Positions 6,556 through 13,404 of a stretch of DNA of 44,040 nt are shown piece by piece. The notes below the pieces were generated by a model that saw nothing but the letters and a program-made list of their open reading frames with translations, had not been told where the DNA came from and searched no databases. The stretch spans positions 1 to 44,040 of the forward strand of contig JAHFQA010000004.1 of NCBI GenBank assembly GCA_023266475.1. Reading direction: 5' to 3'. The position numbers were made by a program, and so were the translations under genes. The stretch is from Candidatus Woesearchaeota archaeon. Its GTDB lineage: Archaea > Nanobdellota > Nanobdellia > Woesearchaeales > GW2011-AR4. How positions within the stretch are numbered: position 1 is the stretch's first letter; each line of letters begins with the position of its first letter.

Positions 6556-6732
6556 TTATTTAATCAATTGATTTAATTCCAAAAGAATTGTTAAAAGTTT
6601 TCTTCCCTTATTGGTTATTTCATAATCTACTTTTTGATGCCCAATATCATATTTTACTATAAAACCTTTTTCAGTTAATTCTCTTAAGACAGATGGTAAA
6701 GTAGTATGAGAAACTTTGGTTTTTCTGACCAT
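6556..6732 (-). pseudogene. Winged-helix regulator fragment, out of frame with the upstream ORF
   Basis: MVRKTKVSHTTLPSVLRELTEKGFIVKYDIGHQKVDYEITNKGRKLLTILLELNQLIK; shares DNA with the 3' end of the 6684-7370 ORF in another frame. Confidence 0.55.
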
Positions 6733-7370
6733 TTTGGCATATTTTCTCCTTTGGAGCCTAATAAAAATGAGAAACTTTCTAAATCAACATGGCTTTGAAA
6801 TCTTAACATATGTTTATTTTTAGTTTCTTTATAATTAGTTGGACCATATTTTTCAAATGTTATTTGCAATAAATCCATAAATATCTTATGAGTGGAATGT
6901 GTTATGAGTTTTATAGTATAGTTAGATTTTCTTACTGGAGTTAAATCGCCTAAAACTAAGCCATAGAGATATGCTTTTTCTCGAATAGATAAATCAAATT
7001 TTTGCTTTTCTTTTATGTACCCTATGGCTAATTGAGCTGACCTACTGTCCATTATACTTATTTCATTTTCAACAAGTATCTTTCTTATAGTACCACGATG
7101 AATGTTTGTGTGTCTTGAAACTTTCCTAATCGATTTGCTGTCATTAAAAACTCCTAATAAGTTTTGAATATTGATGCCTTTCCTAAACTTTATTGTAATT
7201 CCTTCTTTATGTGTCCTTAAAATTATTCCAGATTTCTTCAAATGATACTTAACAGTATTTGGATGAATAGAAACTTTATGATTTTGTCCTAGCAATTCAG
7301 CAGTTTCCTTTAAAGAATTACCTTGTTTGTAATATTCACAAGCTAGCTTAATAATTTCATCTGATGTCAT
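6684..7370 (-). CDS. HTH protein with LAGLIDADG homing-endonuclease-like domain, apparently truncated
   Basis: ATG at 7370 preceded by GGAGGT; HTH repeats then EKAYLYGLVLGDLT...MLRFQSHVDLESFSFLL, followed by an out-of-frame tail. Confidence 0.55.
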   Translation of the reverse strand: MTSDEIIKLACEYYKQGNSLKETAELLGQNHKVSIHPNTVKYHLKKSGIILRTHKEGITIKFRKGINIQNLLGVFNDSKSIRKVSRHTNIHRGTIRKILVENEISIMDSRSAQLAIGYIKEKQKFDLSIREKAYLYGLVLGDLTPVRKSNYTIKLITHSTHKIFMDLLQITFEKYGPTNYKETKNKHMLRFQSHVDLESFSFLLGSKGENMPKWSEKPKFLILLYHLS

Positions 7371-7420
7371 TTTTATAACCTCCAAAGTTTTTTATTTTCT
7401 TAAAGACTTTGGATTTTCGA

Positions 7421-7601: not shown

Positions 7602-9071
7602 TCAGCCCTTGATATTTCCCAGAGGGAAAAGAGAAACAACAGGCAATGATATTCCAGCTTGTGCCAACGTGTCCACAACTTCATTAATATTCTTATACGC
7701 AAACCCTGCCTCTTCTGCTAATCCCGGCATTGATGTTGCTTTTACATAAATTCCCCTCTTTTCCATATCTTTTTGCAATTCCTCACCCCTAACTTTATGC
7801 TTTGCAGCAGCCCTTGACATTGTTCTTCCGCTTCCATGAGCTGTGCTTCCAAAAGTTTCATCCATTGCTTTTTGAGTTCCTACAAGCAAAAAGCTTCCGG
7901 TTTCCATTGAGCCACCTATAATGACAGGCTGTCCGGTGTCCTTATATAAATTTGCAAGCTCAGGATGATTCGGAGGAAAAGCCCTTGTGCTTCCTTTTCT
8001 GTGCACAATTAATTTTTTCTTTTTTCCGTCAACTATATGCTCTTCAAGTTTTGCAATGTTGTGCGCTACATCGTAGACCATGTGCATATCCAGTTTCTCC
8101 GCTTCTGTTTTGAACACTTTTGAAAATCCCTCCCGTATCCTGTGCAAAATCACTTGCCTGTTTGTGAATGCCATGTTTGCAGCGCAAGCCATAGCCTTGT
8201 AATAGTCCTGGCCTTCATTGCTCTGAAATGGCGCACATGCAAGTTCCCTGTCATAAACTTCAATTTTGTACTTTTTCATAGCACCTTCAAATATTCTCAA
8301 ATAATCAGTTCCAATCTGATGCCCAAATCCTCTTGAGCCGCAATGCACCATAATAACAACCTGCTCCGGCATATTTATTCCAAATTTTTCCGCAATTTTT
8401 CCATCAAAAATATTTTCTGCCCTCGCTACCTGAATTTCTAAATAATGGTTCCCAGATCCAAGAGTCCCTAATTGATTAATTCCTCTTTCCAGCGCTTTTG
8501 AGCTCACTTTTTCTGCATCAGCCCATTCTATTCTTCCATGGCCTTCTGTCCTTTCCATGTCTTCTTTCCATCCATAATTATTTTCTACACACCATTTTGA
8601 GCCATTCTCTATTATTTCTCTGAACTGATTTTTATTTGCACTAACAAATCCTCTTGCTCCAACACCAGAAGGGACTGTTTTGAACATAGTGTCGACTAGT
8701 TCTTTTAATTTTGGCTGGACTTCCTTGAAAGTTAAATTTGTAGTAACCAATCTCATTCCGCAATTTATGTCAAAGCCGATTCCTCCCGGAGAGATTACGC
8801 CTGTTTCCGAATCAAAAGCTGCTACTCCTCCAATTGGAAAACCGTAGCCCCAGTGCCCATCCGGCATACAGAATGAATACTTTTGGATTCCCGGCAGGCA
8901 TGCAACGTTAGTAACTTGGTTGAAAACTCCTGCATCCATATCGTCAAAAAGTTTTTTTGTCGCATAAATTCTTGCAGGAACTAACATACCTTTTTTGTAA
9001 GATGGTGGTATCTCCCAAACAACATCACTAATTTGCTTTACGTCTTTTGGTTTTTCAAAATTCTGTTCCAT
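7602..9071 (-). CDS. rtcB: RNA-splicing ligase RtcB
   Basis: 489 aa: CMPDGHWGYGFPIGGVAAFD, GGIGFDINCGMRL, LGSGNHYLEIQ, MVHCGSRGFGHQIG, HGSGRTMSRAAA. Confidence 0.96.
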   Translation of the reverse strand: MEQNFEKPKDVKQISDVVWEIPPSYKKGMLVPARIYATKKLFDDMDAGVFNQVTNVACLPGIQKYSFCMPDGHWGYGFPIGGVAAFDSETGVISPGGIGFDINCGMRLVTTNLTFKEVQPKLKELVDTMFKTVPSGVGARGFVSANKNQFREIIENGSKWCVENNYGWKEDMERTEGHGRIEWADAEKVSSKALERGINQLGTLGSGNHYLEIQVARAENIFDGKIAEKFGINMPEQVVIMVHCGSRGFGHQIGTDYLRIFEGAMKKYKIEVYDRELACAPFQSNEGQDYYKAMACAANMAFTNRQVILHRIREGFSKVFKTEAEKLDMHMVYDVAHNIAKLEEHIVDGKKKKLIVHRKGSTRAFPPNHPELANLYKDTGQPVIIGGSMETGSFLLVGTQKAMDETFGSTAHGSGRTMSRAAAKHKVRGEELQKDMEKRGIYVKATSMPGLAEEAGFAYKNINEVVDTLAQAGISLPVVSLFPLGNIKG

Positions 9072-10888: not shown

Positions 10889-11015
10889 TTATTTCATTTC
10901 TTGAATGGTATTTTCTCAATAATCTTTCTAATAAAAATTAAATTCATGAAACACAAATAGAAAGTATTTTAAATTATTATCTTGTTCTTGATTTTTGGTT
11001 GGGCAGCTTATGGGG

Positions 11016-11045
11016 ATTCTATAAGCATTGTTTATAGGACCAGAA
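11016..11045 (+). other. tRNA-Phe intron 1 (position 4/5, acceptor stem), 30 nt
   Basis: Bulges GG|A (11014-11016) and AA|C (11044-11046); helix ATGG/CCAG (3 bp + A.G); inner hairpin TTCTATAA/TTATAGGA. Confidence 0.85.
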
Positions 11046-11060
11046 CGGTAGCTCAGCCTG

Positions 11061-11087
11061 AGAAGGAAGCTAAAAGTCTTCGGCTAT
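11061..11087 (+). other. tRNA-Phe intron 2 (D-loop), 27 nt
   Basis: Perfect BHB: CTC-AGCC-TG|A-GAAG ... CTTC-GGCT-AT|G-GAG. Confidence 0.93.
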
Positions 11088-11096
11088 GGAGAGCAC

Positions 11097-11118
11097 ACAA
11101 CTTTTGATGTTGGCTTAA
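11097..11118 (+). other. tRNA-Phe intron 3 (position 27/28), 22 nt
   Basis: GAGC-AC|A-CAAC-TTTTGAT-GTTG-GCTT-AA|A; central helix GAGC/GCTT; no clear outer helix (relaxed BHB). Confidence 0.88.
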
Positions 11119-11137
11119 ACGGCTGAAGACCGTGGTG

Positions 11138-11166
11138 AAAGGTTCACGTTTAGTGTACTTCCACAA
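11138..11166 (+). other. tRNA-Phe intron 4 (variable loop, about 46/47), 29 nt
   Basis: GTGG-TG|A-AAG ... CTT-CCAC-AA|T; central helix GTGG/CCAC; relaxed BHB. Confidence 0.85.
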
Positions 11167-11179
11167 TCATGGATTCAAA

Positions 11180-11206
11180 ACAACCTTAAAAAAGGTTTGC
11201 TGAAAG
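11180..11206 (+). other. tRNA-Phe intron 5 (T-loop, position 59/60), 27 nt
   Basis: GGA-TTCA-AA|A-CAACCTT AAAA AAGGTTTGC-TGAA-AG|T-TCC; central helix TTCA/TGAA, outer GGA/TCC. Confidence 0.88.
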
Positions 11207-11229
11207 TTCCATCCGCCCCATTTTTTTAA

Positions 11230-13404
11230 TCAACCTACAGTTGCTACCAGAATTCTTCCAGCAATTATATTAAACAATAGCATTACAGACCCTGATATAA
11301 AAACATAAAGCAAAGTGCTTCTGATTAAATTATTCCCAAGTTGGTACCTCTCGTTTAACTTATCAGAGCCGTTTTCAACGCCGTTTGCAATAACGGTCAA
11401 TATAAAAGTGATTTGCACAACATAAATTCCCACTATAAGCTGAAAGTAGTATGTCGGAATGCCTTCTCCAAATAATCCAAGAATTCCAGTTGGAGCAGCT
11501 GCACCTTCGCCGCCGACATTTGAAGTGACTTGCTGCAATGAAGTGCTTAACTTTCCCAGAATTGTGGTAATCATAGAAGTAATTCCAATGACAACGCCAG
11601 CAATTGCAGGCGTCAAAAACTTAATCTGGGAATGCATTGAGGAAATTATGTCAGCCATCAGGTCTTTTAGCCTCTCATTAACCTTGTGAATTTCTTTGAT
11701 ATACCTTGCAACATTAGTCAATGCCTGCGCAGCAATCAAAGGGCCCTTTTTTATTGCCTGTGTCAAAACTTTCATAGAACTCTCAATCAAATTGCTTGGA
11801 AATGAAACTAACGCGCCATGCATTGGATCAAATATTGCTTTATCAATACTCATTCCTAATCTTCTTATGTTTAAACTTACCAACTGGAAAAAGCTTCCTG
11901 AAACTGTCCCTTCCATGATATCAGCGACTTTGCCAACAGCAATTTCAACAGGAAGATTGTCTCCAAGCCTATTTCCAAGCTGAAACAAGGCGCTTGCAAA
12001 CTCAAGCTCAAGCTGCTTTGCTTTCTCCCTTATTTTAATGATATTTTTTGACTTAAGCCTGTAATATAATCCAATTGCAAGCCCAAAGCTTAAAGGAATA
12101 AAAAGGCTTGCTAATGCTGCGCCCAAACCATAAGGGCCCCTGTTAAGTGAATCTCCCCTGTATTCCAAAAAGCAATATTTCTGCTTGCACGACGACGTTA
12201 AATCATCTCCGCCAATCCCAAAATCAGGAATTCCCAATGCATGGAATATTAAAGGGCTCAATCCAATCAAAAAAAATAAAACTCCAACAAAAATACTAAT
12301 AATCATTGGAGTAACCTGCAATTCCTGGTTTCCAATTCTTATTATTAGATTTCTGTATTTTTTCAGCTCTGGGTTTTCCTCGGCAATATCGGTATCGCCG
12401 TAGCCAGTTGGCCTTTTAGATAGAATATTTTTTCCAAGATAATATACAACAACTGTTAAAATTACGTTGTAGATAACTGCAAGATGGTACCATTGCACCT
12501 CTTCCATAAAGCTCACAACTAGAGGCAAGATTACTAAGCCAAGGATTGGCAGTATTATTCCAAGCATATGCAGCATCGTAATCGGATTTTGAAGGTTGTG
12601 TGTATAATGAAGCATTTTTTCATAGGTTTCGTCAAGAATCACATCCAATGATTTGTCTAAAGCATTTAACCTCCTCGACTCGTCACCTTCATACAGAGAA
12701 CTCTCAATTAAGTGAAAGGCTTCAATAAACTCAAGATTCCACTTTTTCCATGTTTCAAGGTACATATCAAGGGATTCCTTTACAGAGGAATATTTTTCTG
12801 TCTCGACATCCCACAGCACTTTTTTCAAATCAAGCGACAATGGAGGCGAAAGGTGCTGGCTTGCGAATTCAATTGCATTTTCAAGGTTAGAGGTATGCCT
12901 CATATAGGTCACAGTGTAGAATACGCAAAGAACCATTTGGTTGCTTGCCTTCAGGCGCCAGTTATTTGCAAGAAACTCAGGAATTTTTCCACATGGCCTT
13001 ATCATAACCAATGCCCCAATCAAAAATAAAAAAACAAAAAATGTTGACTGGAATATCAAGTATGCAAGCAATGGAATAAAAATTGCAATAACCGAAGGAA
13101 GCAAAAATGAAAAGGAAACTGCTCCTGAAGGCGTTATCTTAAGGTGAATGATGTCGATTGCCTCCTGTAATTCATTTGCCCTTTGTTGCCCGGGCTTTAT
13201 CCTCAGGATTTTCTCGCTTAGGTTGCATAATTTCTCGTACAAACTCATGTGTTTAGGCAAAAATTCTGCCTTGAATTCTTGGTATTCCCTAGTTGTGGGC
13301 TGAGGCGCAGATTTTTCGAATTTTGCTCCCAGCTCTTTCTCCAAGTGCCTCTTATAAATCTCCATCAATGACAGAAGCTTTTGCTTATCTAATTCCGATG
13401 GCAT
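11230..13404 (-). CDS. Archaeal type IV pilus/archaellum assembly membrane protein (FlaJ/TadC-like, T2SF domains)
   Basis: 724 aa polytopic protein directly downstream of the secretion ATPase gene; LELEFASALFQLGNRLGDNLPVEIAV. Confidence 0.82.
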   Translation of the reverse strand: MPSELDKQKLLSLMEIYKRHLEKELGAKFEKSAPQPTTREYQEFKAEFLPKHMSLYEKLCNLSEKILRIKPGQQRANELQEAIDIIHLKITPSGAVSFSFLLPSVIAIFIPLLAYLIFQSTFFVFLFLIGALVMIRPCGKIPEFLANNWRLKASNQMVLCVFYTVTYMRHTSNLENAIEFASQHLSPPLSLDLKKVLWDVETEKYSSVKESLDMYLETWKKWNLEFIEAFHLIESSLYEGDESRRLNALDKSLDVILDETYEKMLHYTHNLQNPITMLHMLGIILPILGLVILPLVVSFMEEVQWYHLAVIYNVILTVVVYYLGKNILSKRPTGYGDTDIAEENPELKKYRNLIIRIGNQELQVTPMIISIFVGVLFFLIGLSPLIFHALGIPDFGIGGDDLTSSCKQKYCFLEYRGDSLNRGPYGLGAALASLFIPLSFGLAIGLYYRLKSKNIIKIREKAKQLELEFASALFQLGNRLGDNLPVEIAVGKVADIMEGTVSGSFFQLVSLNIRRLGMSIDKAIFDPMHGALVSFPSNLIESSMKVLTQAIKKGPLIAAQALTNVARYIKEIHKVNERLKDLMADIISSMHSQIKFLTPAIAGVVIGITSMITTILGKLSTSLQQVTSNVGGEGAAAPTGILGLFGEGIPTYYFQLIVGIYVVQITFILTVIANGVENGSDKLNERYQLGNNLIRSTLLYVFISGSVMLLFNIIAGRILVATVG

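Follow-up and report, generated by a model that had tools for sequence, protein, structure and literature searches.

In archaea, tRNA introns are excised by the endonuclease EndA, which cuts both strands of a BHB motif between the second and third nucleotides of the bulges; RtcB then joins the exons. The maximum number of introns in one archaeal tRNA is given as three, both with tRNAscan-SE 2.0 (PMC8450103) and in a review (PMC4033280). For the Asgard lineages Atabeyarchaeia and Freyarchaeia, the main text of the corresponding paper describes 92-95% of tRNAs as interrupted, more than half of them with multiple and often non-canonical introns (PMC11291895). Alpha-type EndA enzymes that lack the CSL or ASL have been reported to be inefficient at cutting relaxed BHBs (PMC6379350, PMC12397907). 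Our full-text literature search returned no report of four or five introns in one archaeal tRNA, and for tRNA introns of Woesearchaeota it returned a single paper, concerning a group I intron.

The DNA analyzed here is a 44,040-nt stretch (the window) from a genome that the first-pass annotation took to be DPANN-like and that belongs to an uncultivated member of the Woesearchaeota. It carries a tRNA-Phe(GAA) gene that spans 209 nt and is divided into six exons and five introns of 22-30 nt. The gene takes a known gene type to a new extreme and is not a type of its own; it exceeds the literature maximum of three by two introns. Removal of the five introns leaves a 74-nt cloverleaf with the acceptor stem GGGGCGG/CCGCCCC and A73, D stem GCTC/GAGC, anticodon stem CACGG/CCGTG and loop CTGAAGA, variable loop GTGTC, and T stem ATGGA/TCCAT. 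ARAGORN names this spliced 74-mer tRNA-Phe(gaa), in agreement with the identity first assigned to it. The raw interrupted gene was detected neither by ARAGORN nor by Rfam model RF00005 at the gathering score, as had been suspected of standard scanners. That both tools overlook a core tRNA indicates that DPANN genomes probably have more tRNA genes than are counted.

All parts of the gene lie on the forward (+) strand. Exon 1 (GGGG, 11012..11015, tRNA positions 1-4) is separated by the 30-nt intron 1 at site 4/5 (11016..11045, a relaxed BHB with an inner helix of 8 bp) from exon 2 (CGGTAGCTCAGCCTG, 11046..11060, positions 5-18). Intron 2 (11061..11087, 27 nt) interrupts the D-loop at 18/19 and is followed by exon 3 (GGAGAGCAC, 11088..11096, positions 19-27), by the 22-nt intron 3 at 27/28 (11097..11118), and by exon 4 (ACGGCTGAAGACCGTGGTG, 11119..11137, positions 28-46), which includes the anticodon GAA. 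The 29-nt intron 4 (11138..11166) falls in the variable loop at 46/47, exon 5 (TCATGGATTCAAA, 11167..11179) covers positions 47-59, and the 27-nt intron 5 in the T-loop at 59/60 (11180..11206) precedes exon 6 (TTCCATCCGCCCCA, 11207..11220, positions 60-73). Upstream, a probable archaeal promoter is recognized by resemblance at 10960..10975 (+), with BRE-like GAAAG at 10960-10964 and TATA-like TTTTAAATT at 10967-10975. A T-run directly 3' of the gene (11221..11227, +) is the probable terminator, and T-runs follow the genes of the relatives too.

Full hBHBh' motifs are formed at introns 2 and 5, for which the D-stem and the T-stem, respectively, serve as outer helices; in intron 5, one additional C stands between the inner and central helices. 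Introns 3 and 4 are relaxed HBh' motifs without an outer helix, and intron 1 is as relaxed as these two. The junctions of introns 2-5 each have a 3-nt bulge beside a central helix of four pairs. At intron 1, the central helix T(-1)G1G2/CCA consists of three Watson-Crick pairs and an A-G mismatch, and it reaches 4 bp in the homologue L030. This helix involves the leader nucleotides AT at positions -2 and -1 (11010..11011, +). The sequence ATGG(GG) is kept upstream of intron 1 and pairs with CCA(G/T) in five genomes, and TTAG/CTAA takes the place of this pairing in L042. The intron 3 junction can be placed in three registers (0, +1, +2) with the same product, and the other four junctions are unique. 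In the T arm, A53-U61 replaces the usual G53-C61; we consider this pair real because it is also found in relatives without a T-loop intron (L029, L033).

To place BHB introns and cloverleaf jointly, we used a beam-search program on positions 10980-11260, without supplying the coordinates of the first-pass annotation. The top parse reproduced the start, the end and all five introns that the annotation had proposed, at the same sites (4/5, 18/19, 27/28, 46/47 and 59/60). Its score was 60.5, while 120 dinucleotide-preserving shuffles of the same stretch gave a mean of 19.6 (SD 3.2, maximum 27.6). The earlier description of the junctions as BHB-type, with a textbook motif at intron 2 and relaxed forms at introns 3 and 4, was likewise borne out.

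We regard the locus, with high confidence, as a genuine and probably single-copy tRNA-Phe(GAA) gene, whose five BHB introns are cut by EndA and whose exons are joined by RtcB. Among the alternatives, the one that survives best is nevertheless very improbable, namely that a decaying pseudogene or tRNA-like element stands here and a functional tRNA-Phe is encoded in the 12% of the genome that the assembly lacks. Such a reading gains something from the 88% completeness of this MAG and from the heavy interruption of the gene, but it would leave unexplained why all stems are intact and the identity elements retained. In the sister species G011 (L080, record JACOZN010000001), the same five introns are present and the mature tRNA is identical, although the introns have diverged. 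The promoter motif is also conserved, in the form CGAAAG(N)TTTTAAATTATTATCTTGTTCTT at the same place in syntenic relatives, and most of the genus has the gene at this locus. The helices, too, keep pairing through sequence changes. Central and inner helix positions are paired in 433 of 480 cases (90.2%) within species and in 3313 of 4432 (74.8%) when strands are mixed between species, a control that is modest given how conserved the central helix is on its exon side. For intron 4, compensatory changes are seen in the central helix, which is GTGG/CCAC here and TAGG/CCTA in other genera.

A second tRNA-Phe, which the first-pass annotation had advised looking for, was not found in the 88%-complete assembly with the mature sequence as query; this search returned the present locus and partial matches only. 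The best partial match (C45:8398) was rejected, being a tRNA-Lys(UUU) with two introns. Other parseable tRNA genes of this genome (L001-L024, L096) have zero to two introns, most of them one or two, which makes this an intron-rich genome throughout, for which standard tRNA counts will come out low; the census itself, drawn from Rfam hits, does not fully cover genes with heavy interruption.

The locus is syntenic across one Woesearchaeota family, with tRNA-Phe at the same place in most members. Its neighbours are an OB-fold protein gene on one side and, on the other, a gene for a 724-aa membrane protein without a confident Pfam match, next to which lies a secretion ATPase gene. Outside the family, order-level synteny mostly breaks down. 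Intron 1 is missing in L029 (GGGGCGT contiguous), L031 and L033 and present in L030, L037, L080 and L085; intron 2 is missing in L085 (CAGCCTGGGAGAGC contiguous) and present in L029, L030 and L080. For intron 3, L031 and L033 lack it (GAGCACACGGCTGAAG contiguous) and L029, L030 and L080 have it. Intron 4 is absent from L030 (GTGGTGTCGAGG contiguous) and L033 but present in L029, L080 and L085, and intron 5 is absent from L029 and L033 (GATTCAAATTCCAT contiguous) but present in L030, L031 and L080. Relatives without a given intron have the exons joined precisely where the junctions were proposed, which confirms each of the five boundaries. This bears directly on the idea that there are fewer than five introns, with some segments staying in the mature RNA or with other junctions in use. 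The three Watson-Crick pairs at intron 1 and the ambiguous register of intron 3 speak for it, but for every segment there is at least one homologue that lacks precisely that stretch, and the runner-up parses of the solver score no more than 56.0 and differ at the 5' end only. We therefore give this idea hardly any weight.

It is just as implausible that the insertions are chimeric strain variants produced by assembly. The source is indeed a fragmented MAG, and truncated tRNA-Phe copies occur in the related MAGs G014 and G018; even so, many assemblies made independently have the same introns at identical sites, BHB geometry is found in every insertion, and the gene lies well inside the 44-kb contig. 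In the two fragmentary assemblies, the 5' part of tRNA-Phe is missing (L083 in G014, L140 in G018). A search of the G014 assembly for a separate 5' half found none, which makes loss during assembly a likelier cause than a split gene. For the gene studied here, a split or permuted tRNA was rejected, as exons 1-6 follow one another in their normal order over 209 nt, and so were group I/II self-splicing introns, given the intron lengths of 22-30 nt and an Rfam scan of the window that gave tRNA-Val only.

Five introns had been called exceptional at first pass. Measured against the literature maximum of three this holds, but the gene is not unique, since the same five introns occur in G011, five are also present in G030, and three or four are the usual number in the family. 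Across 29 genomes, the tRNA-Phe gene has no intron in one, one intron in one, two in five, three in eleven, four in seven, and five in four. G030 (L042), from another genus, has its five introns at 3/4, 18/19, 25/26, 46/47 and 59/60 (solver score 70.9). G018 was counted as the fourth five-intron case with four visible introns and an intron 1 remnant, only a remnant because the 5' exon is missing from the assembly. The tRNA-Phe gene is intron-free in L057 and L115. In the 29 genomes, introns recur at 4/5, 18/19, ~20/21, 27/28 (or 25/26), 37/38, 46/47 and 59/60, and single or rare sites are 44/45 and 53/54; the genes L031, L032, L036, L044 and L050, with poor solver parses at D-loop or 37/38 introns, were read by eye. 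On a tree of a neighbouring protein, intron presence and absence change about as often as shuffled labels, so turnover is fast as far as a one-protein tree with some table entries read by eye can tell. Within the family, introns are gained and lost quickly, at some nine sites that recur. As for intron transposition within the genome, the 209-nt locus has no further match there, hence no recent intron copy is visible.

Several other features of the family were observed. Intron 5 of L080 is 76 nt long (27 nt here), apparently with a second hairpin inserted inside the intron. The D-loop intron 18/19 and the canonical intron 37/38 almost never co-occur among the 29 relatives: one genome has both, and a single one of the two is present in 10 and 16 genomes (Fisher p=3.3e-5, without control for phylogeny). 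The 3' arm of the D-loop intron, GTCTTCGGCT, could pair with the anticodon arm GGCTGAAGAC over 10 bp, a cross-pairing that might render the D-loop intron and the 37/38 intron incompatible. The 37/38 introns of L071, L077, L033, L036, L037 and L050 contain k-turn-like CTGA...GATGA motifs, for example CTGAGGCGAAAGCCGATGA in L071, and are perhaps hosts of box C/D guide RNAs. In L034, L035, L040 and L051, a sequence starting near ATGTCCAGTG and an adjacent ORF lie between tRNA-Phe and the membrane protein gene; this insert is possibly a mobile element.

Sequence and comparison document the gene, its five junctions, the helices of the BHBs and the occurrence of both endA and rtcB; that the gene is transcribed and spliced, and in which order, we infer. 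One precursor transcript with a short leader would be made, EndA would excise the five introns, and RtcB would join the six exons. Intron 1 would be excised ahead of 5' trimming by RNase P, because its central helix uses leader nucleotides -2 and -1 and the acceptor strand is split after nucleotide 4. The predicted dependence on the leader makes the order testable, in that splicing should precede 5' trimming. When the entire precursor is folded naively with ViennaRNA, the BHBs of introns 1 and 2 do not appear, and the 3' arm of intron 2 can pair over 10 bp with the anticodon arm instead. This is a weak point of the model, in which these BHBs must then be brought about by folding during transcription or by the enzyme.

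The likely trans partner for ligation is encoded 2 kb from the tRNA-Phe gene, where rtcB (7602..9071, - strand; Pfam PF01139, E=3.7e-171) specifies a tRNA-splicing ligase. Beside rtcB, a 233-aa ORF (window 6684-7385, - strand) has a weak helix-turn-helix match and, by eye, a LAGLIDADG-like segment. The endA gene lies on another contig (C34) and is the sole PF01974 gene; its 200-aa product has an N domain and a catalytic C domain with an intact Tyr/His/Lys triad. Its closest solved relatives are the N. equitans alpha subunit (3iey) and the M. jannaschii alpha-4 enzyme. The CSL/ASL is absent from this EndA, as the loop YGNLLEDGRVQLS (NLLEDGRVQ) has neither an insertion nor a Lys where ARMAN-2 has Y160-K161. 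From these sequence features the enzyme looks alpha-type, of the M. jannaschii alpha-4 class, and the features of the relaxed-specificity class ((alpha-beta)2 or epsilon-2) were not found in it. A beta or fused EndA subunit was not found in this genome; since a search with this EndA picks up NEQ261, the beta subunit of N. equitans, with E=4.6e-14, a similar beta subunit would probably have been detected. Nearly all of 59 relatives likewise have a single PF01974 hit.

The enzyme class counts against the favoured reading of the locus, as does the A53-U61 pair in the T arm. Either relaxed motifs are processed by the alpha-only EndA, or it has a highly divergent partner. We lean, with some reserve, towards the view that in this Woesearchaeota family the five introns of a tRNA, relaxed HBh' motifs among them, are spliced by an alpha-only EndA without CSL/ASL, and that five is the new maximum. 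If true, rampant non-canonical introns in tRNAs would not depend on (alpha-beta)2 or epsilon-2 EndA, contrary to the accepted rule. The finding challenges the proposal that intron diversity and EndA types with such a loop evolved together. It also lifts the stated intron maximum from three to five, for a tRNA that is essential and probably single-copy, within a lineage-wide pattern of intron gain and loss for which the intron-free relatives provide built-in controls.

Among known systems, the split tRNAs of Nanoarchaeum equitans are similar in that a DPANN archaeon assembles exons via BHBs, whereas here six exons follow in order on one 209-nt stretch. ARMAN-2 (Micrarchaeota) is also a small-genome DPANN archaeon with relaxed BHB introns, but its epsilon-2 EndA of ~395 aa carries the ASL with Y160/K161, in contrast to the 200-aa single-unit enzyme without this loop. 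Atabeyarchaeia and Freyarchaeia belong to another superphylum, and the main text of their description gives no five-intron count for one gene (PMC11291895). The Thermoproteales (Pyrobaculum and relatives) share small BHB introns, several per tRNA and often at non-canonical sites, for which sequential splicing is expected. They differ in having no more than three reported introns per gene (PMC8450103, PMC4033280), compared with five here, and in their (alpha-beta)2 EndA with a CSL, in place of which the Woesearchaeota genome encodes an apparently alpha-type enzyme without it.
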